A stretch of 64,000 bases of DNA from Haliscomenobacter hydrossis DSM 1100 (GTDB lineage: Bacteria > Bacteroidota > Bacteroidia > Chitinophagales > Saprospiraceae), in NCBI RefSeq assembly GCF_000212735.1, contig NC_015510.1:6325001-6389000 (forward strand). Direction: 5' to 3'. The notes under the pieces were generated by a model, which was given only the letters and a program-made list of their open reading frames with translations, did not search any database and was not told the origin of the DNA. Shown here piece after piece: positions 4,765 to 18,200 of this stretch (within the stretch, counting starts at the first letter, position 1; the number at the start of each line of letters is the position of its first letter). A program made the translations under genes and the position numbers.

Positions 4765-5538
4765 CTACCCCAACACCATCTCCACAAACTCCGCCGTACT
4801 CTCCGCCACCTTCGGATTGTGCGTTAGTGCCTTGATGTACGCGCTCCCAATAATCGCCCCATTGGCGTACTGGCAAGCCGTTGCAAAAGTCTCGTGATTC
4901 GAAATCCCGAACCCGATCAGGCGTTTGTTTTTCAGTTGCATGTCGTTGATGCGGTTGAAATAGGCCAATTGAGTATCGGTGATGTCACTTTTGGCGCCGG
5001 TGATGGACGAACTCGACACCATGTAGATGAAACCGTGCGTCAGTTCATCTATCTTGCGGATGCGCTCGGGTTCCGTTTGGGGGGTGATCAGGAAACTCAC
5101 CGCCAGCCCCAGCGATTCCACGATGTCTTTGAAATACGTTTCATACTCGAACAAGGGTAAATCCGGCAAGATCAAGCCATCGACGCCCACTTCGGCTGCT
5201 TTTTCAAAAAAGGCCCGTTCGCCATATTGCATCACCTGGTTGAAATAGCCCATCATGATCAGGGGCATTTCGGTTTTTTTGCGCACTGCCGCTAGTTGTT
5301 CAAACAGCAGGGGCAAGGTCATGCCGTTTTCCAGCGCTGCGGTTCCACTTTCCTGGATGGTTGGCCCGTCGGCGAGTGGGTCGGAATAAGGCATGCCCAC
5401 TTCCACCAAATCCACGCCCGCTTTTTCGAGCGAAAGGATGATCTCTTCGGTGTCATTCACTCCCGGATAACCCGCGGTGAAGTATATGTTGAGTACGTTT
5501 TTGTCCTTGTTTTGGAACAATTTTTCGATTCTGTTCAT
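4765..5538 (-). CDS. trpA: Tryptophan synthase alpha chain
   Basis: Cleaves indole-3-glycerol phosphate to indole and glyceraldehyde 3-phosphate, passing indole to TrpB in the alpha2-beta2 complex. It is 257 residues, normal for the family. I use ATG 5538 (MNRIEKLFQ), which gives the canonical start; the open frame upstream to 5634 is repeat sequence. Visible motifs are NIYFTAGYPG near the N-terminus, VDLVEVGMPYSDPLADGPTI with the two acid catalysts (the E of VEVG and the D of PLAD), GLILPDLPLFE, and IYMVSSSSITGAK followed by LIGFGISNHE for phosphate binding. It is the last gene of the leftward trp operon, separated from trpB by a 205-base inverted repeat. Confidence 0.97.
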   Translation of the reverse strand: MNRIEKLFQNKDKNVLNIYFTAGYPGVNDTEEIILSLEKAGVDLVEVGMPYSDPLADGPTIQESGTAALENGMTLPLLFEQLAAVRKKTEMPLIMMGYFNQVMQYGERAFFEKAAEVGVDGLILPDLPLFEYETYFKDIVESLGLAVSFLITPQTEPERIRKIDELTHGFIYMVSSSSITGAKSDITDTQLAYFNRINDMQLKNKRLIGFGISNHETFATACQYANGAIIGSAYIKALTHNPKVAESTAEFVEMVLG

Positions 5539-5548
5539 TGGTAAAAAA

Positions 5549-5753
5549 GTTGAGAAGGTTGAGAAGTTGAGAAGGTTGAGGCTACCGCGAGCGACATGGC
5601 TACCGCAAGGCATAAATGATGTCGCAAGATTCATCTAATGGTATTGGAGTTGAATTAGGCTGTAGCATCGTTTGATTTCCTCCGCTCGTTCCATGTAACC
5701 TGCGGTAGCCATGTCGCTAGCCTCAACCTTCTCAACTCCTCAACTTTCTCAAC
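5549..5753. repeat. Large inverted repeat between trpB and trpA
   Basis: Left arm 5549-5607 and right arm 5701-5753 are near-complementary. Read on the same strand, both give a run of GTTGAGAAG/GTTGAGG units followed by a GCGACATGGCTACCGCA segment. About 93 bases of unique sequence separate the arms. No ORF with sense is inside. It fills almost the whole trpB-trpA gap. Confidence 0.8.
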
Positions 5754-5757
5754 CCAG

Positions 5758-6930
<1,173 letters not shown>

Positions 6931-6935
6931 GATGA

Positions 6936-7595
6936 TTATTGATTTAGTACTTGAATAAATCGTTGGATGGAAGCAATGTCTTTGAGTCCGGGAGCAGTTT
7001 CAAACTTGCTGTTGATGTCAACCCCGGCCAGCATCGGGTGTTTGAGGCGTTTGATGGCTTCCGCAGATTCTTCCGCAATGCCTCCACTGAGGAAAAAAGG
7101 CACCTCGCCCTGGTATTTTTCCAATAAACTCCAGTCGAATTGTTCACCGTTGCCGCCAAAAGAAGCCCCTTTGGTATCGAACAAAAAGTACTTGCAATAC
7201 GGCTCGTAGGCTTTTACGGTTTCAAAATCGAAGTTGGCATCCACACTGAAAGCTTTGATGATCGCAGCGCGGCGAATGCTGCTGAAACTCCACAAACTAA
7301 AGAGTTCCATACAATATTCCGCCCGCTCACTGCCGTGCAATTGGATGTAGTCCAACTCATAATCGTGGACCTTGTTGAGGACGTCCTCCAATTCTGAATT
7401 GACAAAAACCCCCACCCGGGCAATACTTTTAAGTGCCTGCGGGGATTCTTTGGCCAGCCATTTTTCCAGCTTTTTGTTGGCGGCGGCAAAGCGGGGCGAA
7501 AGTGGATAAAAAATGAAGCCAATGAAGTCGATGGGGACTTGACTCAGGGCCACAATGTTTTCCATATCGCGCATACCGCATACTTTGACTCTCAT
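6936..7595 (-). CDS. trpF: Phosphoribosylanthranilate isomerase
   Basis: Amadori isomerisation of phosphoribosylanthranilate to CdRP. It has 219 residues and a TIM barrel. MRVKVCGMRD carries the general-base Cys near the N-terminus, and GVDINSKFETAPGLKD carries the catalytic Asp. FFLSGGI forms the phosphate-binding turn, and YIQLHGSE is the conserved QLHG strand. It is a stand-alone enzyme, not fused to TrpC as in enterics. It stands 5 bases before trpB; the gap to trpC upstream holds a palindromic repeat. Confidence 0.95.
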   Translation of the reverse strand: MRVKVCGMRDMENIVALSQVPIDFIGFIFYPLSPRFAAANKKLEKWLAKESPQALKSIARVGVFVNSELEDVLNKVHDYELDYIQLHGSERAEYCMELFSLWSFSSIRRAAIIKAFSVDANFDFETVKAYEPYCKYFLFDTKGASFGGNGEQFDWSLLEKYQGEVPFFLSGGIAEESAEAIKRLKHPMLAGVDINSKFETAPGLKDIASIQRFIQVLNQ

Positions 7596-7631
7596 ATCGT
7601 TTGGCTTTCAGATTTTATTCACCACGGGTTT

Positions 7632-7711
7632 TGTTCACCACAGATTCACACAGATTCACACAGATTAATTTAAAAAAATCTGTGCGAATCTGTGCGAATC
7701 TGTGGTGAACA
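7632..7711. repeat. Palindrome of CACAGATT units between trpC and trpF
   Basis: A 35-base arm (7632-7666) made of tandem CACAGATTCA units, a 10-base AT-rich loop, then the complementary arm (7677-7711) of GAATCTGTGC units. A half copy with the same unit occurs at 27998-28030 upstream of pobA. Confidence 0.85.
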
Positions 7712-7756
7712 TAAAAATGTAATTTGTGGTGAACATAAAAAGCAGCGAAGCTGCGG

Positions 7757-8560
7757 TTAAAAACTTACTTGTGGTAAACTGTTCAGACTTTGCACAAATT
7801 CGGCAAAGCGTTGCTGGGGTTCTGGATCACTCATGAAGTATTCTCCAATCAAAAAACCTTGGAAACCAACCTGTTTTAACTCCTGGATGGTTTGGGGATT
7901 GTTGATGCCACTTTCTGAAATCTTCAGGAATTCCGCCGGAATCTGATCAAAAAGATCGATAGAGGTTTGTACACTGACCTCAAAATTCTTCAAATTGCGG
8001 TTGTTGACACCCACTATGTCGACCTCTGGGCAGAGTTTTGCCAATTGATCCCCCGAATGGATTTCCATCAACACTTCCAAACCCAGCGATTTGGCGGTTT
8101 TGGCCAAACTGCGCAGTTGATCCGCTTCCAGGCACTCGGCAATCAAGAGGATGACGTCGGCACCCATGGCCCTGGCTTCAAATACCTGGTAGTCGTGCAC
8201 CATAAAATCCTTGCGCAACACTGGAATTTGATTGGCCTCGCGCCCCGCAATCAGGTCGGCAGTGCTGCCACCAAAAAACTGCTCATCGGTCAGGATGGAC
8301 AAGCCCGAGGCACCCGCATCGGCGTAACCTTTGGTCACCGTAGCCGCATCTGCACGGGTATTGATGTCGCCCTTGGAAGGGGACCGGCGTTTGAATTCCG
8401 CAATGATGCCCGTGCGTTCAGGATGCAGCAGCGACTCGCGCAACGAATAGGTCTGCCGCCCAAAGTAGGGGCTTTTTTCCAATATGCTGATGGGCGTCAT
8501 GGCACTGCGCTCCGCTATTTCAATGTGCTTGTGGGCAACGATTTTGTCGAGAATGTTCAT
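7757..8560 (-). CDS. trpC: Indole-3-glycerol phosphate synthase
   Basis: Ring closure and decarboxylation of CdRP to indole-3-glycerol phosphate. It has 267 residues and is monofunctional. The family start MNILDKIVAHKHIEIAERS is present. AEFKRRSPSKGDIN holds the catalytic Lys and the phosphate-binding residues, VLRKDFMVHDYQ the second Lys, VGVNNRNLKNFEV the conserved NNR(D/N)L strand, and ISESGI plus FLIGEYFM the C-terminal phosphate cup. It is in the trp operon, with repeats filling both gaps. Confidence 0.97.
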   Translation of the reverse strand: MNILDKIVAHKHIEIAERSAMTPISILEKSPYFGRQTYSLRESLLHPERTGIIAEFKRRSPSKGDINTRADAATVTKGYADAGASGLSILTDEQFFGGSTADLIAGREANQIPVLRKDFMVHDYQVFEARAMGADVILLIAECLEADQLRSLAKTAKSLGLEVLMEIHSGDQLAKLCPEVDIVGVNNRNLKNFEVSVQTSIDLFDQIPAEFLKISESGINNPQTIQELKQVGFQGFLIGEYFMSDPEPQQRFAEFVQSLNSLPQVSF

Positions 8561-8567
8561 TTCTTTG

Positions 8568-8643
8568 AGGGTTCGGGGGTTTGGAGGTTCGGGGGTTCGA
8601 GGGCCCGGAGCACAACCCCCGAACCCTCGAACTCCCGAACCCT
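8568..8643. repeat. GGTTCGGGGG palindrome (family R3) between trpD and trpC
   Basis: Left arm with repeated AGGGTTCGGGGGTT units and right arm with CCCCCGAACCCT units around a GGGCCC centre. The trpD stop codon TAG is the first three bases of the element's TAGGGTTCG end. A second copy is at 12594-12670. Confidence 0.85.
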
Positions 8644-9631
8644 ATGATTGTACCAATTTCTTCCAACCGGCGATAGCCCGGCCACTTTCAATACTCTCCC
8701 GTGCTTCTGCAACACAGTCTTCCGCGGATTGTTCAGGTTTGATCACTTTGATGGCCATCCCTGCATTGGCGATGACGGCAGCTTTCTGGGCTTCGGTGGC
8801 TTGGTCTTCCAATACCGACATAAAGATTTTGGCCGCATCTTCAGAACTGTCCCCACCATCGAGGTCGTGTTGTTGGAGTTTTTTTAAGCCCAATTCTACG
8901 GGCGACCAGATGCGTTCACTGTCGTTGCTGACCACTTTGAAATCGCTGGTTAACGAAATCTCATCGTAGCCATCCAGCCCGTAAACAATGGCAAAACGCC
9001 GCCCTGACTGCTGCATGATGTATTGGTACATGCGCAACAACTCCATGCTGAAGGTGCCAAACATCTGGTATTTGGGTTGCACCGGGTTGACCAGTGGTCC
9101 CAACATGTTGAAGAAGGTACGGGTACCCAATTGCCGCCGGATGGGGCCAACTACTTTGAGGGCAGGATGAAACAAGGGCGCGTGCAAAAAACACATGCCT
9201 GCCTTATCCAAATGGCGGCGCAAAGTGTCCTGATCGGTAGTAAACTGGTAACCCATCTGGATCAACACATCCGAGGAGCCTACCGAAGAGGAAACCCCAT
9301 AACTGCCGTGTTTGCTCACCGGATAACCGGCACCAGCCACCACCACACAAGAAAGTGTGGAGATGTTGAAGGTGTTTTTGCCGTCGCCGCCCGTGCCGAC
9401 AATGTCGATGGTTTCGCGGCCTTCGAGGTCAAGTGGAACACAAAGTTCCAGCAAGGCATCCCGAAAACCTTGCAGTTCCGACAGGGTTATCGGGCGCATG
9501 TTGAACGCTGTGGCGAAAGCCGAAATCTGGACTTCGTTGTATTGTTCGGCAGCAATGTTGAGCAAAATTTGCCGGGCTTCATCCCGGCTGAATTTATCGT
9601 GTTCGTATAGCCGATTCAGCAGTTGTTTCAT
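8642..9631 (-). CDS. trpD: Anthranilate phosphoribosyltransferase
   Basis: Transfers phosphoribosyl from PRPP to anthranilate. It has 329 residues, normal for a monofunctional enzyme. Motifs are IVGTGGDGKNTFNIST (PRPP/Mg loop, about residues 78-93), VSKHGSYGVSSSVGSSDVL, and FLHAPLFHPALKVVGPIRRQLGTRTFFNMLGPLVNP, all diagnostic. The start MKQLLNRLYEHDKFSRDEA fits the family helical N-domain. It is not fused to TrpG, unlike in E. coli. The stop codon coincides with the edge of a palindromic repeat. Confidence 0.97.
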   Translation of the reverse strand: MKQLLNRLYEHDKFSRDEARQILLNIAAEQYNEVQISAFATAFNMRPITLSELQGFRDALLELCVPLDLEGRETIDIVGTGGDGKNTFNISTLSCVVVAGAGYPVSKHGSYGVSSSVGSSDVLIQMGYQFTTDQDTLRRHLDKAGMCFLHAPLFHPALKVVGPIRRQLGTRTFFNMLGPLVNPVQPKYQMFGTFSMELLRMYQYIMQQSGRRFAIVYGLDGYDEISLTSDFKVVSNDSERIWSPVELGLKKLQQHDLDGGDSSEDAAKIFMSVLEDQATEAQKAAVIANAGMAIKVIKPEQSAEDCVAEARESIESGRAIAGWKKLVQS

Positions 9632-9686
9632 TCTAAGGACTTATACATAATGATGCATGCATCCGCCTGCGGCGGAGGGTTGTTTT

Positions 9687-9964
9687 TAGCCACAAATGAC
9701 ACAAATTTTCACAAATTCAAGCACAAACTTCGTTTGCGCCTCGTACCACAACATGAATCATCCCGAATTTTTTAGTGCAACAAAAGCGACACATTTTTAA
9801 CACAAAGGGCACAAAGGAAAGCACAAAGAACACAAGGTAGCGCTTGTCTTTGTGCACTTTGTGCTTTTCTTTGTGTCCTTTGTGCTACTTTTTTGAACCG
9901 CTTTGGTCGTTTTTAAAAATTCGGGATGATTCATGTTTGTGCAAATTTGTGCAATTTGTGGCTA
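9687..9964. repeat. Nested palindromes between trpG and trpD (contains R4 copy 1)
   Basis: This fills most of the 375-base trpG-trpD gap. There are three concentric inverted repeats. The outermost is TAGCCACAAATGACACAAAT near 9687 against its complement near 9939-9964. The middle pair is 9752-9773 against 9915-9935 (CATGAATCATCCCGAATTTT). The inner CACAAAGG-type palindrome, about 9799-9888, is family R4. The inner unit recurs at 24184-24280 and 40034-40131. Nothing coding is seen. Confidence 0.85.
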
Positions 9965-10006
9965 ATAAAATTGCCAACAGCGCCGCAGGCACATGCTGAT
10001 TCATGT

Positions 10007-10612
10007 TTATGCCACCGCCGCTTTGGCTCCGGTTTTTTCCGCACAATAATCGATAAAATTGCGCAGCATTTTTTTGCCATCTGGCGTCATCACGGATTCG
10101 GGATGAAACTGTACTCCGAATACGTTGTAATCGCGGTGACGCATGGCCATGACCTCATTTTGGTGATCGACCGCAGTGACGATCAGTTCGTTGGGCAAGG
10201 TGTTTTTGGCCACAACCCAACTGTGGTATCGACCCGCCTCAAAAACCATCGGTACATCCTGAAAAAAATTGGCGTCATTGCCCAATTGTTTCATCAGGGT
10301 AGCCACGCCGTGGTACACCCGCGAAAGATTATCGAGGGTTGCACCAAAAGCTTCCCCAATGGCCTGATGTCCCAGGCAAACCCCCAAAATGCACTTGCTC
10401 GGGGCGTATTTTTTGATCAATTCCGGCATGATGCCCGCTTCGTGGGGCAAACCAGGGCCAGGAGAAAGCACAATCACGTCATACCGTGCTACGTCTTCAA
10501 GCGCGATGGCGTCATTGCGGTACACGTCTACGTTTTGCCCCAGAATTTCCTGGAAATATTGGACCAGATTGTACGTGAACGAATCGTAATTATCGAGAAC
10601 CAGCAGTTTCAT
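10007..10612 (-). CDS. trpG: Anthranilate synthase component II (glutamine amidotransferase)
   Basis: Class I glutaminase that supplies ammonia to TrpE. It has 201 residues. I chose ATG 10612 (MKLLVLDNYDSFTYNLVQYF), the invariant N-terminus; the open frame upstream to 10780 crosses a palindromic repeat and is not coding. The nucleophile is the Cys in GVCLGHQAIGEAFGA, the oxyanion/PGP segment is VLSPGPGLP, and the His-Glu pair is in FGVQFHPESVMT. It lies downstream of trpE, separated by repeat R5. Confidence 0.96.
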   Translation of the reverse strand: MKLLVLDNYDSFTYNLVQYFQEILGQNVDVYRNDAIALEDVARYDVIVLSPGPGLPHEAGIMPELIKKYAPSKCILGVCLGHQAIGEAFGATLDNLSRVYHGVATLMKQLGNDANFFQDVPMVFEAGRYHSWVVAKNTLPNELIVTAVDHQNEVMAMRHRDYNVFGVQFHPESVMTPDGKKMLRNFIDYCAEKTGAKAAVA

Positions 10613-10628
10613 GTTTATCGTGTTTGTG

Positions 10629-10788
10629 GAGTTTGTTTGAAAGTTTTGTTCAGGCTGCAAACGGTCTATTTTTACTAGAATTTCGTTCCGAAAATGCTCA
10701 TGTAGCCCTGCTACACTCCGCTTTTCGTGCCTTATTCTAGCAAAAATAGCCGCGTTTTCGCCTCTGAACAAAACTTTCAAACAAACTC
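10629..10788. repeat. R5 palindromic element, copy 1 (160 bp) between trpE and trpG
   Basis: Outer arms GAGTTTGTTTGAAAGTTTTG and its complement end at 10629 and 10788. The centre contains GAACGAA-type and GCACGAAAAGCGGAGT blocks, seen here as the reverse complement. A second copy of almost identical length is at 33733-33893. The central blocks are conserved between copies while the arms differ in sequence and stay self-complementary. Confidence 0.85.
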
Positions 10789-10799
10789 ATTGAGGGAAA

Positions 10800-12215
10800 T
10801 TATATTTTTTCGGCTTCAACCAAGGCTCTGGTCAAGGCACCCAATTTGTTGTGCACTTCCTGCAATTCACTTTCTTCCTTGCTGTCAACCACAATTCCGG
10901 CACCAGCCTGGTAGTACAAGGTATTGTCCTGGCTGAGGAAAGAACGAATCACAATGGCCTGGTTGATGGATCCATCAAATCCGATCATGCCCAAAGACCC
11001 GCCATAAAACGAACGGTTTTGGTTTTCGTATTGATTGATCAACTCAATGGCTTTGTATTTGGGTGCTCCGGAAAGTGTACCCGCCGGGAACGTATCGCCA
11101 AAAATTTGCACCGGGTTCGCATGCGCTGGTAAATCACCCGTTACCGTAGAAACCAGGTGAATTACGTGGCTGAAAAACTGGACCTCCTTGAGCTTGCGCA
11201 CTTGTACGTTTTCGGCGTGACGACCCAGGTCGTTGCGTGCCAGGTCAACGAGCATGATGTGCTCGGCATTTTCTTTGGGATCTTCAGCCAGAGCCAGCGC
11301 ACGGCGAGCGTCCTCAATGGTGTCTCCCGAGCGGCGGTAGGTACCCGCGATGGGGTTCAAACGTGCTACACCGTCGCGCACCACCATTTGGGCTTCGGGT
11401 GAAGAGCCAAAAATTTTGTAATTGCCATAATCGAAGTAGAAGAGATATGGAGAAGGATTGATGGAGCGCAGGACGCGGTAAACATTAAATTCGTCGCCTT
11501 TAAAATGGCGGGAGTATTGGCGGGAAAAGACGATCTGGAACACATCCCCAATTTGACAGTGGCGCTTGCCTACCCTCACCAGTTCTTTAAATTCTTCGTC
11601 GCTGAGGTTGCTTTGTTCCTGGCCTTCGAGGTGAAATTCGTGGGTGGGGATTTTTTGGCTGCGCAGCAGGGCTTCCAGTTTGTCCATTTCCGAAGCTTGT
11701 CCCGGCATCAAGTTCTCTAGTAGGTACAGTTCGTTTTTGTAATGGTTGATCGCAATGATGAAGCGATGCAGGGTAAAGCGGATATCAGGAATGTGGAATT
11801 TGCGCTTGCTGGGATCAAATTTCAGGGTATCGAAATATTGCACCCCGTCAAATCCCACGTGGCCAAATAGCCCGTTGTATACCGGATAGGGCGTATCCTG
11901 CTCGATGCTGAATTGCTGCGCAAAATGTTGCAGGGCTTCGGGCACGGTGGTCACATCGGTGACAAATGTTTTGCTGGTTTCGCCATCGGGTAGAAGGGTG
12001 TTGATGACCCCATCTTTGACCATAATTTCGGCGATGGCCTGCAAACCGATGTACGAAAAGCAGTCAACAGCGCTGCTGAAATCATTACTTTCCAGCATCA
12101 CGGGCTGGGTGTAGTGGTCGCGCACCTTCAAAAAAACGGAAACGGGGGTGACCATATCCGCCAGTTGTTTTTTGATGTGGGTGCGCAGGTGAATTTGTTG
12201 GGTTGTGCTGATCAT
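10800..12215 (-). CDS. trpE: Anthranilate synthase component I
   Basis: Converts chorismate to anthranilate with ammonia from TrpG, the committed step. It has 471 residues. The C-terminal chorismate-binding domain has FGSSPEAQM, NPIAGTYRRSGDTIEDARRA, HIMLVDLARNDLGR and TFPAGTLSGAPKYKA. Near the N-terminus the tripeptide in VMLESNDFSSAVD corresponds to the LES element of the tryptophan feedback site, so allosteric inhibition is expected (family knowledge). It is the first structural gene of the operon. The start at 12215 (MISTTQQIHLRTHIKKQLAD) follows the attenuator by about 40 bases. Confidence 0.97.
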   Translation of the reverse strand: MISTTQQIHLRTHIKKQLADMVTPVSVFLKVRDHYTQPVMLESNDFSSAVDCFSYIGLQAIAEIMVKDGVINTLLPDGETSKTFVTDVTTVPEALQHFAQQFSIEQDTPYPVYNGLFGHVGFDGVQYFDTLKFDPSKRKFHIPDIRFTLHRFIIAINHYKNELYLLENLMPGQASEMDKLEALLRSQKIPTHEFHLEGQEQSNLSDEEFKELVRVGKRHCQIGDVFQIVFSRQYSRHFKGDEFNVYRVLRSINPSPYLFYFDYGNYKIFGSSPEAQMVVRDGVARLNPIAGTYRRSGDTIEDARRALALAEDPKENAEHIMLVDLARNDLGRHAENVQVRKLKEVQFFSHVIHLVSTVTGDLPAHANPVQIFGDTFPAGTLSGAPKYKAIELINQYENQNRSFYGGSLGMIGFDGSINQAIVIRSFLSQDNTLYYQAGAGIVVDSKEESELQEVHNKLGALTRALVEAEKI

Positions 12216-12256: not shown

Positions 12257-12303
12257 TTAAAAACAAAAACGGCTTGCCGGGTGTGATCCGACAAGCCGTT
12301 TTT
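12257..12303 (-). terminator. trp attenuator terminator
   Basis: On the minus strand AAAAACGGCTTGTCGG (12303-12288) pairs with CCGGCAAGCCGTTTTT (12280-12265) across a 7-base loop, with only one U-G pair. It is followed by TTTTTGTTTTTAAG. It lies between the leader peptide stop (12343) and trpE (12215), the position expected for an attenuator. Confidence 0.9.
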
Positions 12304-12342
12304 GCGCTGTATGTTCGTGAACATCATCAATGGCTATCTACT

Positions 12343-12420
12343 TCACCCGAGAACGGAATGATTCAGACGCCACCACCAAATGTTTTGAACAGATACAGTC
12401 ATTGATTGAAAGTTTTTCAT
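12343..12420 (-). CDS. trpL: trp operon leader peptide with Trp-Trp-Trp
   Basis: A 25-codon frame that starts MKNFQSMTVSVQNI and continues WWWRLNHSVLG before TGA. The three adjacent Trp codons (TGG x3 at 12370-12378) are diagnostic of a tryptophan-sensing leader. The frame begins only about 9 bases after a -7 box. Stalling at the Trp codons under tryptophan shortage would leave the leader end (CTCGGGTGA, 12343-12351) free. That segment can pair with TCACACCCG (12278-12286) in the loop and 3' arm of the terminator, a plausible antiterminator with a two-base bulge. It is too short for normal ORF calling. The peptide itself should have no function beyond being translated. Confidence 0.9.
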   Translation of the reverse strand: MKNFQSMTVSVQNIWWWRLNHSVLG

Positions 12421-12428
12421 TTCGCTTG

Positions 12429-12458
12429 CAAAGATATGGGCTTTTGAGAAATATGCAA
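12429..12458 (-). promoter_or_regulatory. trp operon promoter
   Basis: TTG at 12456-12458 and TATCTTTG at 12429-12436 on the minus strand are exactly 19 bases apart, a perfect Bacteroidota -33/-7 pair. The leader ATG follows at 12420, so the mRNA has almost no untranslated leader before the peptide. Confidence 0.85.
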
Positions 12459-12528: not shown

Positions 12529-12593
12529 CCGGATATGCATCATGGAAAACGAAAAAAAAATAGCATGGGATTATATGAAAAACACTCACTATT

Positions 12594-12670
12594 AGGGTTC
12601 GGGGGTTCGTAGGTTCGGGGGTTCGAAGCACCAACCCTGGAGCCCCCGAACCCCCGAACATCGAACCCTA
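12594..12670. repeat. GGTTCGGGGG palindrome (R3), copy 2
   Basis: Same unit structure as 8568-8643, with TAGGGTTCG at one end and CGAACCCTA at the other. The TAG stop of the adjacent gene (12668-12670) is again the first codon of the element. Confidence 0.85.
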
Positions 12671-15600
12671 TTGCTTCACCACCCGCTCAAAGAACACCTG
12701 CTGACCGATCTGAATGCGCAGGAAATAAATCCCTGGGCGGAGGTCATCAATGTTGAGCTGGTTGGTATTGCGGAAGGATTTCACCACCGTTTTGCCATCC
12801 AGCGCCATCACCTTTACATCGGTGACGGAACCAGCGACACTGGCGATGTTCAGCTGACTGTTGGTCGGGTTGGGATAAACCGTTACGCCACTCAGCAAAT
12901 CTTCCGGGCGGACTGCACGAGGTGCATCCACAATATTAAAGGCAGTTTCTTCGGTATTCAGCGGTAGAATTTCACCATCCAGGCGGTTGAGGATGGCGTC
13001 GTCCGTTTTGAGCTTGGTTTCGGCACGCCCAACCAAATCGATGATGATGCCCTTCATTTTGGCCACTACACCATAACCCGATACCTCGTTTTGGTCCGTA
13101 CGGGTGATGGCAATATCGATTCTTCCTTCGTTGGGATAAACTTTGAAGATCGACTCTAAATTGACCTGCGGTTGACCCATCCAGGAAGTCGGTATTTCAA
13201 TGGTCAGGGCTTTGGGGTCGATGAGTTTGGGGTCAAATTTGACACTGAAGGCAACACCATAAATGTCTTTGATGACCTGATTATTGGCTCCCAGAATGAT
13301 TGGAATCTCAAAGCGGGTGCTATCGGCTAACTCACCTTTGGCCGGCATTTCAACCAGGATTTTGGGATCCAAATTCGTGGCTGGCAGGGGTTTTGGGCGG
13401 GTGAAAGGCCCGCGGGACAAACCAAAGTTGAAGGACAAGGCATCAATATCAAGGCGGTTGATTTCCCCATCACCATTCACGTCGGCGTGCTTGTAGTTGA
13501 TGGCATCGAAGAAAATTTCGGGCCAGTCCAAAGCCGGCGTAGGTTTCCAATCCCAGGAATTGGACTTAAAGCGGGCAATCCCTTTGCTGCCAAAGGCCTG
13601 ACCAATGTGCAAAAGGTCAAAGTGATTGGCGGTATTATCGAGGTTGACATCACCAGGCCACACATCGGTAATGCGCATGTTGCGGCACTTCACCGGGCCA
13701 AAGGTTACGGTGCGTTTGCAGGTCGTATCTTTGAGGTTGAGTAGCTCAACTTTGAAGAAGGTAACCCCGTCGCCCAACAAACCATTGATGGCAAAGGTGG
13801 TTTTTCCAGCTTCAAGCGTGTCCAGTATTTTGCCATTGATGGCAATGCGCAATGGACCTGGAGTTGGATTTTTGAAAACCAGATCTGCACTGAAAGCGCC
13901 GCCCGCATTACAAGGTTTTTGCTTCACATCCACGATTAGATCGGGGCATGGCCGCTCACAAGGCAACTTGACCTCCTGGGTTTCACAACAACCCTGACTA
14001 TCGTTGATGCAGACCGTGATTTTGAATACATCCTTGTCTTGGGCCAATTTGAAGTTGGCTTCCAAAGGCAGGCGGATCAAGGGGAAAGTACCGATGATCT
14101 TCCCATCAACCATGACATCGAAGAAGCGATTGAGTACATTTTCATACTTGAAGTTGATGTACAAACGCCGTGATCCATCCGGATTACAGCCCAAGCCACG
14201 AATCGCCAGGTTAGAAATTTTGCAAGGATTGGGGTCAACACATTTTGGCGCTTCCGCTTTGGTGGCAGCAAAACAGGTTGGGTTGGTCACATCTACCGCC
14301 AGAAACTCGATGTAGCCGCTGGGCGAATTGGGGAAAGGACCAATTTTTTGGGCTTCGCCGTTGTAAGGGAATGGCCCAAACAGCATGCCATTGGCGTAAA
14401 TGATGTAGCCTTTTTGTAAACTGGAAGTTGGTCTTGAAACCACCCAGGCTTTGGCGTAGAACTGCCCTTTTTCGCAAGGCAGCAGGTCTACTTTGATGCC
14501 ATCGATTGGACAATTGGACTCACACTTTTTCAACTCCAAACGGCCTGCTTGGGTACAACCTTTTTCTTTGTCTTCAACTTTGATTTCCAAAACCGCCACA
14601 TCGGCACTCAGTACCTGTACACGCAAGGGAAGCAGGTTGTAAGCATAAGTGCCATAAAGTTTGCCGTTGGCATATACGTTGAAGAATGTTCCGGTGTTTT
14701 TGTGCTCAAAATTGAGGGTGACGTAGTAGCCACCGGTGGGCAAGCACACCTGATCCAGCTTTAATGCCCCAATTTCACAAGGTGTTTGGGTGCAAGGAAC
14801 TTCATACAGCCACTTGATGCAACAATCCGGTGAATTTTTATCACAAACAACTATCCAATCGGTACGGCTATTTTTAGGCAAAGGTACTTTATCGATGCGT
14901 ACGGCCTGGCCTGTGTACTTAAACCGGGATTCAAAACCGGTAGAGGTTTGTAGCCAGAGGATGGAGTCTGTGTTGGTCGCTTTGAGCTTAACCAGCATGC
15001 TGTACGTCCCGTCGTTGTTGCACTTGACTTCCGTGACGCTGATGTCACTGAGGGAGCAGGGACGCTTGCAGTCGAAAGGTTTGATGTATCCTTTGCTGCT
15101 GCAGGAACGGGTATTGCTGTCGTACACCTCCAAGCGGATGGTGTCTTTTTGGGGAGCAGGCAGAATCAAACGAATGGGCAACTCCGTATACTTGTTTTTG
15201 CTGATTTCTTTGCCATTTTGCACCAATACGAAATAATCGGAATTGGTACGGAAATATTTGAAATCCAGGTAAGCATACACTTCACCTTTGTCATTACACG
15301 GTGCAGTTTTGATGACCAGTTCGCCCAATTCACATTCGGGGCACTTGGGCTTGGTCACCGTAACGGAAACACAACATTTTTCACTTTGCCCTTCTACACA
15401 GGCTTTGACCTCAAACGTAAGTGCATCGGTATTGATGATGACGTTTTCAATCAGCTGAGGGGTATTGAGCAATTTAAAAGGACCATATTTTTGCCCTTCA
15501 ATTTGCAGATAATAGGTGGCCAATAAGCTGGATGGACTCAAGTTTGGCAAGGGGGTAATCAGCAGATCGTAACCTCCTTTAGGGCTGCAACCCCGGATGA

Positions 15601-18013
15601 CCACTTTCAGCTCTTTAATCCGGCAAAGGGTATCGGAAGCGCAAACTATCTTTTCCAGGACAACCGTATCCGCACAGGGCTTTTCTACATCAGCAGCGTA
15701 AAAAACCTGACGAGGACTGGTCGTTGCACGCGTAAACGGACCAATCACCTGTGCTTTTTGGTCGTACCCAAAGGGGCCGTATTTTTTGCCATCCGGACCC
15801 ACTACGAAGTAGCCCCCTTTGCTGCCATTGCTGCTTTCGGTTTTAATCGAAGCGTAATATTTGTCTCCGCTACATTCAACGGGAGTGACACTGATCTTGA
15901 GTTTGCAGTCACAATCCTTGTTGATGATATCGGGAATGATTTCCAGACAACAGGTATCCACCAAACTTTCGGTGCAAACCTGGATTTTGAGCGGGATGAT
16001 GCCCCCGACAATTAACTCCAGCGGTTCTAACTTGAGTGGGAAACTACTGGGTTTAAACGGTCCCAATACTTTTCCGGGAACCTTGATGTATACTTTGTCT
16101 GATGTGAGCAAGTTTTCATCAAAGGCCGCATTGATCTCCAGTTGGTACTTTCCAACCACACCACAACCTGTTGCCACAGCCTTAATTTCTTTGATCGGGC
16201 AGAGGTCTGCTGGATTTGCACAAGATTTGCGACGAATGATTTTGGCGACGGTTTCCAAACAACATTTTTCCACATTTGGCAAACAAACCTGAACTTTCAG
16301 CACATTGCTAATGAGGTTGGGAATGGTTTTGGAAATGCTGATGCGCAAAGGCATCTTTTTTAAGGAATAAGTACCAATATTTATGCCATTGATGGTCAAG
16401 GTATAAGCAGTGTCTGCTGTTGGGCCCGATAAAAGATTAAGCGTAAAAATATCTTGCTTTTCTTCTTCACAGATGATGTACGCTGCGCTCAGATCACGGA
16501 TGGCGCAGGGTTGGCAGAAGAATTGTTTGATCTCTACCCTGTCGGCACAACGCTCATTCTCGGCATCACGCATGACCACGAGGTAATAACCATCAGCGTT
16601 TGGTTTGATTGGGCCTACCGAACCACCATTGACGGCATAGCGGAAGGGACCAAAGCGCTGGCTATTGACATAAATGTAATAACCGGAAAGCCCTTTGTTT
16701 TCACCACTAAACTTGTACAATACGTTGAACGTACCGTCATTTTTACATTCGGTCGGAGTTGCTGCAAATTCCTTAATGCCGCAGTAACTGGGATCATCAA
16801 GACAGGAGGTCTCAATCCTGATTTTTGGCACAGCGGTTAAACAACAACGGCCATTCGCCGTACTGACGCAAGCTTGAATCAAAAAAGTGGGAGAAGCACT
16901 AAGGGTAATGTATTTTTTAGAAATGGGAATTTCAAAAGGCAACTTTTCTGCTGGAAATTCGCCAAGTAGGATGCCGTTAAGCGATAAAATTACGTTGGCA
17001 TTGCTTGGCGCTACGGTGCCCAACTTGACCAGCAGGGTAGCAAAGGTGTCGCGAGGACAAAATTTGATCTCTACTTCGAGTTCTTTTAGTTCACAAGCCG
17101 CATTGGCACCACATTCGTAGGTAAAATCTTCGATTTTTATACACTTCGGATCTTTGCTGTCGCGAATGGTCAGGATGTACTTGCCGCTGTTGTTGATCTG
17201 GATGGGGCCAATGGCGGGGAAAACATCCTTGTATTTGAAAGGACCAAATTTTTGGTCGTTTACCGTAACGTAATAAGTAGCGGTGTCGGCCTTTGGATCG
17301 GTTTTAAAGGTAGCTGCAAGGTAAAATATGCCGTTGGGCGTGCAAGGACGAGGTAGTATTTTCAGATCGCGAATGCAATCAAGGGCAACCACATCCTTTT
17401 CGAATTCAATACAAACATTGTCGATCCCGAATTCTTGCCCACCGAAGGAAATCGAATCAAGGTCTCCTTCAAAACAGATGGTGCCTTGTAATAAATCGGA
17501 ATCCTCTTTGATGGAAACACTGGCTTTTACACCTTTTGCAACTTCTTTGCCTTGTAATGAACCCCAATCGTTCAGGACAGTAATGGCTTCGCCATTGATG
17601 GAAAAATTTTCTTCCCCACCGCCATCAATGAAGTTGAGGCAAACGCGCTTGGCTTTGCCTTTGGGTAAGTTGGTAAAGATCCACTTCAGGTTTACATTGG
17701 ATACAAATAGCACTTTGCCTTCAGCTTCGAGGAAATTGCCGTCAAACAGCAGCTTCTTTTCTTCTACAGTGATGGAACCAAATTCTTTGGTAGCGTTGGC
17801 GGTGAGAAATGATTCGATGGAAGTGGTAATGCCATCTTTTTTGAAGATAGAAGTACCTGGTTTTTGATTGGCATCGCTGCCGTACTTCGTTTTATCTGCC
17901 AGGTCATTGAAGTTAAAACAAACCTCTTGTTTTTGCGATTGAGCCTCTAACTGCGTCGAAAACAACCCAAAACAAAAAAGCAGTAGATAAACCCAATGTG
18001 TAGAATTGTTCAT
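12668..18013 (-). CDS. Giant secreted repeat protein with dockerin-like, cohesin-like and T9SS sorting domains
   Basis: A 1781-residue exported protein. ATG 18013 (MNNSTHWVYLLLFCFGLFSTQLEAQ) opens with a signal peptide. After an N-terminal beta domain come a dozen or so Cys-rich modules of about 90-110 residues, each beginning C.I..L and several carrying a V.G..FGPF.Y motif (for example VNDQKFGPFKY, VNSQRFGPFRY, YANGMLFGPFPY). Around residues 1480-1560 two dockerin-like calcium loops occur (GDVNLDNTANHFDLL and DVNGDGEINRLDIDAL). A cohesin-like beta domain follows (YGVAFSVKFDPKLIDP). The end has YPNPTNSQLNI and a type A T9SS C-terminal domain (GIYFLRIQIGQQVFFERVVKQ). It is likely cell-surface anchored or released; the ligand is unknown. 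Confidence 0.85.
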   Translation of the reverse strand: MNNSTHWVYLLLFCFGLFSTQLEAQSQKQEVCFNFNDLADKTKYGSDANQKPGTSIFKKDGITTSIESFLTANATKEFGSITVEEKKLLFDGNFLEAEGKVLFVSNVNLKWIFTNLPKGKAKRVCLNFIDGGGEENFSINGEAITVLNDWGSLQGKEVAKGVKASVSIKEDSDLLQGTICFEGDLDSISFGGQEFGIDNVCIEFEKDVVALDCIRDLKILPRPCTPNGIFYLAATFKTDPKADTATYYVTVNDQKFGPFKYKDVFPAIGPIQINNSGKYILTIRDSKDPKCIKIEDFTYECGANAACELKELEVEIKFCPRDTFATLLVKLGTVAPSNANVILSLNGILLGEFPAEKLPFEIPISKKYITLSASPTFLIQACVSTANGRCCLTAVPKIRIETSCLDDPSYCGIKEFAATPTECKNDGTFNVLYKFSGENKGLSGYYIYVNSQRFGPFRYAVNGGSVGPIKPNADGYYLVVMRDAENERCADRVEIKQFFCQPCAIRDLSAAYIICEEEKQDIFTLNLLSGPTADTAYTLTINGINIGTYSLKKMPLRISISKTIPNLISNVLKVQVCLPNVEKCCLETVAKIIRRKSCANPADLCPIKEIKAVATGCGVVGKYQLEINAAFDENLLTSDKVYIKVPGKVLGPFKPSSFPLKLEPLELIVGGIIPLKIQVCTESLVDTCCLEIIPDIINKDCDCKLKISVTPVECSGDKYYASIKTESSNGSKGGYFVVGPDGKKYGPFGYDQKAQVIGPFTRATTSPRQVFYAADVEKPCADTVVLEKIVCASDTLCRIKELKVVIRGCSPKGGYDLLITPLPNLSPSSLLATYYLQIEGQKYGPFKLLNTPQLIENVIINTDALTFEVKACVEGQSEKCCVSVTVTKPKCPECELGELVIKTAPCNDKGEVYAYLDFKYFRTNSDYFVLVQNGKEISKNKYTELPIRLILPAPQKDTIRLEVYDSNTRSCSSKGYIKPFDCKRPCSLSDISVTEVKCNNDGTYSMLVKLKATNTDSILWLQTSTGFESRFKYTGQAVRIDKVPLPKNSRTDWIVVCDKNSPDCCIKWLYEVPCTQTPCEIGALKLDQVCLPTGGYYVTLNFEHKNTGTFFNVYANGKLYGTYAYNLLPLRVQVLSADVAVLEIKVEDKEKGCTQAGRLELKKCESNCPIDGIKVDLLPCEKGQFYAKAWVVSRPTSSLQKGYIIYANGMLFGPFPYNGEAQKIGPFPNSPSGYIEFLAVDVTNPTCFAATKAEAPKCVDPNPCKISNLAIRGLGCNPDGSRRLYINFKYENVLNRFFDVMVDGKIIGTFPLIRLPLEANFKLAQDKDVFKITVCINDSQGCCETQEVKLPCERPCPDLIVDVKQKPCNAGGAFSADLVFKNPTPGPLRIAINGKILDTLEAGKTTFAINGLLGDGVTFFKVELLNLKDTTCKRTVTFGPVKCRNMRITDVWPGDVNLDNTANHFDLLHIGQAFGSKGIARFKSNSWDWKPTPALDWPEIFFDAINYKHADVNGDGEINRLDIDALSFNFGLSRGPFTRPKPLPATNLDPKILVEMPAKGELADSTRFEIPIILGANNQVIKDIYGVAFSVKFDPKLIDPKALTIEIPTSWMGQPQVNLESIFKVYPNEGRIDIAITRTDQNEVSGYGVVAKMKGIIIDLVGRAETKLKTDDAILNRLDGEILPLNTEETAFNIVDAPRAVRPEDLLSGVTVYPNPTNSQLNIASVAGSVTDVKVMALDGKTVVKSFRNTNQLNIDDLRPGIYFLRIQIGQQVFFERVVKQ

Positions 18014-18200
18014 GGTGCGATTATTTTTTGATACTACACTTTGCTCTTGATACAAAAATGCTACTTTTTTCAGACGTTAAAATTGACATAATCGTTGGAA
18101 TTTTGGAAAAAATTCTGGATTATTGACCCCGTAAAACGCCACAATTTTTTGTCAATCAGTAATTTGATGACAAAAAAAGTATGTCAAAAATTGATTTTTT

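Follow-up and report, generated by a model that had tools for sequence, protein, structure and literature searches.

The trp leader of enterobacteria such as Escherichia coli comprises a promoter, a leader peptide with tandem Trp codons, alternative 1-2 and 2-3 pairings, and a terminator, all preceding trpE, and in this classical attenuator the outcome is decided during transcription. In other phyla, trp operons are controlled by T-box, riboswitch, or TRAP systems. For Bacteroidetes, Table 1 of Weinberg et al. 2010 gives the motif Bacteroid-trp with a "y" for cis-regulatory (PMC2864571). Bacteroid-trp is described as conserved upstream of the trp operon of Flavobacterium psychrophilum (PMC6414381), and strong clues are given for leader-peptide attenuation before amino-acid operons of this species (PMC9723704).

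Here, we analyzed a 64,000-nucleotide stretch of Haliscomenobacter hydrossis DSM 1100 (the window), which holds a putative trp leader. From sequence comparison and folding we infer, with a probability of about 0.9, that this element controls the trp operon by ribosome-mediated transcription attenuation, with leader translation, ribosome stalling, and an effect on read-through as its predicted steps. The leader shares with the enterobacterial Trp_leader the order of parts and the 1-2/2-3 alternatives, but it has three adjacent Trp codons, no Shine-Dalgarno–like sequence seen by eye before its start, and a segment 3 that runs past the terminator loop into the 3' arm. The F. psychrophilum candidates come from the same phylum and follow the same logic, but they belong to another family, and no antiterminator pairing is named in the accessible portions of the corresponding papers (PMC9723704 and PMC6414381). 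An Rfam scan of the window and of the leader returned neither Bacteroid-trp (RF01692) nor Trp_leader, and a sequence-only reading of this DNA, which had proposed the attenuator, did not recognize in it the known kind of element that is Bacteroid-trp.

A Trp-Rich Leader Precedes a Complete trp Operon

On the minus strand, promoter, leader ORF, and terminator are followed by trpEGDCFBA, and the operon is complete, with trpG to trpA lying within 4765..10780. The first gene, trpE (10800..12215), has TIGR00564 trpE_most as its best model, with 408.8 bits, which is below the curated cut-off of 517.7 for this model. The closest named TrpE relatives are 92% identical and come from MAG records labelled Chitinophagales or Saprospiraceae, in keeping with the placement made in the sequence-only reading. 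Among the other listed ORFs, all on the minus strand, trpG (10780-10007), trpD (9631-8642), trpC (8560-7757), trpB (6930-5758), and trpA (5634-4765) each pass a curated cut-off, and trpF (7595-6936) matches its NCBIfam models below cut-off. Because family matches to trpG begin only around residue 47-61 of the listed ORF, the true start of this gene lies further in. A palindromic repeat of the GGTTCGGGGG type has one copy between trpD and trpC (8564-8644) and another upstream of the trp promoter (12593-12668), nested long inverted repeats of 33-39 bases with 85-88% complementarity lie between trpG and trpD (9683-9968), and a perfect 25-base inverted repeat with arms 110 bases apart (10629-10653 and 10764-10788) lies between trpE and the likely trpG start.

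We surveyed trpE upstream regions of relatives. TrpE searches yielded 35 matches for 60 relatives and 190 matches for 248 genomes of the family, 39 of these 190 being outside the survey. After leaving out L002 (a 31% identical TrpE relative), L032, and L033, 155 regions were counted, 151 from the same family and 4 from other families of the same order. They were made up of 35 regions from the 60-relative search (30 loci and 5 stretches, with the 4 from other families among these 35), 20 further family loci, and 100 stretches. A Trp-rich leader is present in 148 of the 155: in 145 the leader starts with ATG and contains a pair of Trp codons that are neighbors or separated by a single codon, and in 3 more the Trp codons follow a TTG start or a start codon containing N. 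The scan found no leader in seven regions (L024, L055, L080, L095, L115, L119, and L125), of which L024 has only 146 bases upstream. When the 350 bases before trpE are scanned for ATG ORFs with a run of three or more Trp codons, such ORFs occur in 112/155 regions versus none in the reverse complement and none in 20 shuffled sets; the Trp-Trp-Trp leader peptide claimed from the sequence alone is supported. With at least two consecutive Trp codons, the count is 139/155 versus 2 in the reverse complement and a shuffle mean of 1.3. This conservation also bears on the alternative that the sensor is not a stalling ribosome but a T-box, a riboswitch, or an RNA-binding protein of the TRAP kind. Such control has its precedents in other phyla, but the conserved Trp codons point to translation, the sole Rfam-threshold match in the window is one tRNA, and the leader itself gives weak sub-threshold matches of unrelated families, all of which makes this alternative very improbable.

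In the window, TTG (12458-12456), 19 bases, and TATCTTTG (12436-12429) make up a minus-strand promoter (12429..12458), which we take to follow the Bacteroidota promoter consensus. This assignment, already made in the sequence-only reading, held up among relatives: of 145 leaders, 76 have TAnnTTTG in the 60 bases before their ATG, versus 3 for a control stretch 120-180 bases upstream, and in 63 of those 76 a TTG lies 17-23 bases before this motif. The leader ORF as listed (12343..12420, minus) encodes 25 aa, MKNFQSMTVSVQNIWWWRLNHSVLG, with three adjacent TGG codons at 12370..12378, the putative sensor, which are conserved in an alignment of 57 sequences (A1). The closest relatives, the three congeners L003-L005, have TTG in place of the first ATG (12420), which is in frame in L004 and out of frame in the other two, and a second ATG (12402 in the window) is common to all four, 24-26 bases past the -7 box (26 in the window). 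By this comparison the peptide therefore probably starts at the second ATG and has 19 aa, MTVSVQNIWWWRLNHSVLG; a start at 12420 is less likely. The "almost leaderless start" proposed earlier is thus doubtful.

An Intrinsic Terminator Separates the Leader from trpE

Between leader and trpE lies an intrinsic terminator (12263..12305, minus), with a 5' arm (12305-12288), a loop (12287-12281), and a 3' arm (12280-12263) followed by a U run. Its 18-pair stem has a folding energy of -29.9 kcal/mol (z -8.0 against 200 shuffles), with TTTT directly after it, and the region 12430-12216 folds better than 200/200 shuffles (z -3.9). A generic terminator scan of the window did not report this terminator, probably because the stem absorbs part of the U run. 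Among relatives, a first scan missed 20 of 145 terminators; a relaxed scan found them in 144 of 148 leaders, and the four missed (L022, L102, L111, and L118) hold hairpins by eye and were dropped from the pairing counts. Compensatory changes, one or more per pair, are seen at 11 of the 14 pairs of the consensus stem. The strength of the window's terminator would by itself suit a constitutive terminator or processing hairpin before trpE next to an incidental ORF. Against this stand the Trp-codon runs in 148/155 regions, with none of three in a row in controls, and the mutually exclusive pairings that covary (see below), and we consider such an arrangement highly improbable.

The surroundings of the element hold further features. 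In L003 and L005, the stretch from the trp terminator to trpE is longer by about 110 bases, which carry a palindromic GGTTGAGG/GGTTTAGG repeat and are absent in L004. Upstream of the trp promoter, a second terminator-like hairpin of 15 pairs (12530-12496, minus) probably ends the transcript of the preceding gene. A large minus-strand ORF (1795 aa, 12668-18055) with repeated cysteine-containing segments has its 3' end near the trp promoter, and its C-terminal stretch resembles a secretion sorting domain.

The Leader End and the Post-Stop Stretch Are Predicted to Form the Antiterminator

Segment i (UCGGGUG, 12344..12350, minus), the putative first antiterminator strand, lies where the leader ORF ends and overlaps its stop codon. 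The partner of i, segment k (CACCCGG, 12277..12283, minus), runs from the terminator loop into the top of the 3' arm. The sequence-only reading had paired the leader end with this loop and 3' arm across a two-base bulge; covariation backs the pairing, but the bulge is not needed, i and k being contiguously complementary in the window. In brief, the stretch that follows the Trp codons, taken from base 12 on, was paired with the loop of the terminator and six 3'-arm bases, and own partners were compared with swapped ones in 141 distinct sequences out of the 144 with leader and terminator. The duplex reaches -11.28 kcal/mol with the own partner versus -8.07 with swapped ones (z -16.5), and 0 of 5,000 swaps were as good. 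The swaps carry no phylogeny correction, and in controls z was -6.3 for reversed k and -2.7 for the top of the 5' arm; since reversed k deviates as well, part of the i:k signal reflects composition and relatedness. Changed yet matching i/k pairs include CGAATGA/TCATTCG (L009), CGGATGA/TCATCCG (L010), CGCTGTGA/TCACAGCG (L027), and TAGGAATT/AATTCCTA (L030). Segment i starts at a median of 16 bases past the last Trp codon (10-90%: 13-20, with one flanking base counted and the search begun at 12), a distance that we take to suit the downstream footprint of a stalled ribosome. It starts 12-22 bases past this codon in 130 of the 141 sequences, to which later counts refer, the other 11 being left out.

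After the stop codon, segment p (GAUAGCC, 12332..12338, minus), the putative second antiterminator strand, faces segment j (GGCUUGUC, 12297-12290, minus) in the terminator 5' arm. The pairing of p with the 5' arm is better than in 5,000 of 5,000 swaps (z -4.1), versus -0.5 for reversed p and +1.2 for the rest of the spacer. When the i-to-k stretch is folded alone, i:k forms at least 5 pairs in 122/130 sequences, the 5' arm forms at least 5 pairs with the upstream spacer in 125/130, and both occur in 122/130. The antiterminator, described as "compact" from the sequence alone, is accordingly larger in these folds, with the 5' arm also captured by the post-stop segment in those 122. On A1, 75.0% of cells are paired in the whole antiterminator versus 71.1% after shuffling and at most 41.8% in all slid versions, and there are 62 doubly changed cells versus 21.5 in shuffles (0/500). 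The main i:k helix has 89.7% of cells paired; p:j is loose, with 75.0% and 53.3% in its two parts.

These covariation and folding results describe the antiterminator as one predicted nested hairpin, in which the end of the leader takes the loop together with the upper 3' arm, and the post-stop stretch takes the 5' arm. The same attenuator with i:k as its only antiterminator pairing and the 5' arm free or pseudoknotted, as drawn in the sequence-only reading, draws on the fact that the strongest covariation among the antiterminator pairings belongs to i:k. It is nevertheless unlikely, for p pairs with the 5' arm in the MFE structure of 122/130 sequences and covaries with it, and if p:j were missing, the 18-pair stem could still be made for the most part. 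A pseudoknotted lower stem left by i:k, which we had considered, is made unnecessary by p:j.

The i:k pairing was not found in the accessible portions of PMC2864571, PMC6414381, PMC7366714, and PMC9723704, a coverage that stops short of the supplements of Weinberg et al., where the motif is given. Within this coverage, the antiterminator pairing, absent from the Rfam model, is the new detail.

A Conserved 1-2 Hairpin Offers the Alternative Structure

The leader and Trp-codon region can also pair with the post-stop spacer, forming a 1-2 hairpin (12307..12398, minus) that appears in the MFE structure and in covariation and holds segment i inside its tip. For the Trp codons and the codons before them against the post-stop spacer, z is -17.3, versus -3.9 for the reversed control and -0.8 for a decoy, the terminator 5' arm. 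The earlier view that no separate 1-2 hairpin is needed does not fit this conserved hairpin, which corresponds to that of RF01692. The tip helix (codons after Trp against i) is moderately supported, with z -6.3 versus -2.6 reversed; on A1, 66.3% of its cells are paired versus 62.0% after shuffling, and doubly changed pairs are at least as numerous in 160 of 500 shuffles. The switch would thus have both alternatives, the 1-2 hairpin and the antiterminator, the tip being less firmly established.

The Predicted Switch Operates during Transcription

In the proposed mechanism, RNA polymerase would start at the promoter and a ribosome would translate the short leader. With Trp-tRNA plentiful, the ribosome at the stop codon would cover i, the terminator would form, and transcription would end before trpE. 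With Trp-tRNA scarce, the ribosome would stall on the Trp codons and cover the 5' side of the 1-2 hairpin, leaving i and p bare; i would then pair with k, and p with j, in a nested hairpin formed before the rest of the 3' arm is made, allowing read-through into trpEGDCFBA. Without a ribosome, the 1-2 hairpin would hide i and the terminator would form.

We folded partial transcripts in which k is just exposed and the RNA is free from base 13 of the A-site codon on, the assumed ribosome edge. At least 4 bp of i:k are expected in 120 of 130 sequences with the ribosome on the last Trp codon and in 116 with it on the first, versus 0 with it at the stop codon and 18 without a ribosome. For the window, expected i:k is 6.5 bp (last Trp codon), 5.9 bp (first), 0 bp (stop), and 0 bp (no ribosome). 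Once fully transcribed, the terminator is far more stable than the antiterminator, and at least 4 bp of i:k are expected in only 7/130; antitermination must therefore be kinetic, decided during transcription.

Taken together, the locus has a tandem-Trp ORF before trp genes, an intrinsic terminator between leader and first gene, and, as judged from sequence and folding alone, exclusive 1-2 and antiterminator pairings placed for a stalled ribosome to decide between them. At this level the trp attenuator reading stands, with Trp leaders in most relatives and exclusive pairings that covary. The check proposed with it, conservation of Trp codons, terminator, and leader-end pairing, gave 148/155, 144/148, and z -16.5, respectively.

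The Leader Is a Putative Diverged Relative of Bacteroid-trp

The RF01692 model has no match in the window or its genome, the window scoring below the Rfam gathering threshold. Under strict filters, with weak matches lost, this model finds 41 genomes among 395 of the phylum and 2 among 198 of the order (37 and 1, respectively, above the gathering threshold). From 57 leaders of the family to which the window belongs, its own among them, we built a second model, R1. Of the 41 genomes with an RF01692 match, 39 also have an R1 match that overlaps it, as compared by eye among the matches listed; G747 is without a match, and G788 falls outside the matches listed. R1 matches 95 of 390 phylum genomes in all, a number of raw matches validated only by the RF01692 overlap and not a validated leader count. 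Since R1 matches RF01692 loci at the same places, the two groups are related by descent. Judged by the criterion that Rfam itself applies, the window falls outside RF01692, and its leader is best described as a diverged relative of this known family.

The likeness to Bacteroid-trp extends to a Trp-rich leader peptide, a hairpin of the Trp-codon region with the post-stop spacer, a GGCUUGUC-like terminator 5' arm, and a pairing of the i:k kind, but the window's terminator is longer and GC-rich. Neither i:k nor p:j is part of the RF01692 model, which stops within the terminator 5' arm. Of the 41 RF01692 loci, 30 were scanned, and 29 have leader and terminator, with a best i:k duplex of -7.8 kcal/mol or lower in each. 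In 25 distinct sequences, i:k swaps gave z -4.2 (1/5,000), versus +1.0 reversed and +0.3 for the 5' arm. Within the window's genome, the hairpin pattern GGCTTGTC-N3-10-GRCAAGCC, with a spacer that excludes the window's own leader, has no match elsewhere; a second pattern search, whose spacer also excludes this leader, gave one match.

A His Leader in the Same Genome and the Wider Meaning

In the same genome, the region before hisG (L190 1173-1298) contains a His-rich leader, MIAVFTHTHHHHGLHL, and then an intrinsic terminator, in which CCATTTGC could base-pair with GCAAATGG beyond the stop codon of the leader. Directly before this leader sits a tRNA-Phe gene (L190 1086-1161). By a loose rule that has no control, a short ORF containing three or more His codons occurs in 22 of 29 hisG loci, in 20 of them together with a terminator. 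For i:k-like swaps in his leaders, z is -3.9 (2/5,000), versus -1.9 for the reversed control. That his leaders may share the antiterminator design of the trp leader is suggestive, not settled. We lean slightly towards the view that Bacteroidota share one attenuator design for trp and, with His-rich leaders, for his operons, missing from the current RNA model, in which the leader end would pair with the loop and 3' arm, and the post-stop stretch with the 5' arm.

These findings explain likely trp regulation in a family that the public model mostly misses, RF01692 matching 2 of 198 order genomes under strict filters versus 148 of 155 regions with a leader, and they offer a concrete, covariation-backed antiterminator amenable to point mutations. 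Bacteroidota make little use of Shine-Dalgarno sequences, and our results suggest that amino-acid attenuation keeps its classical logic in such a phylum.
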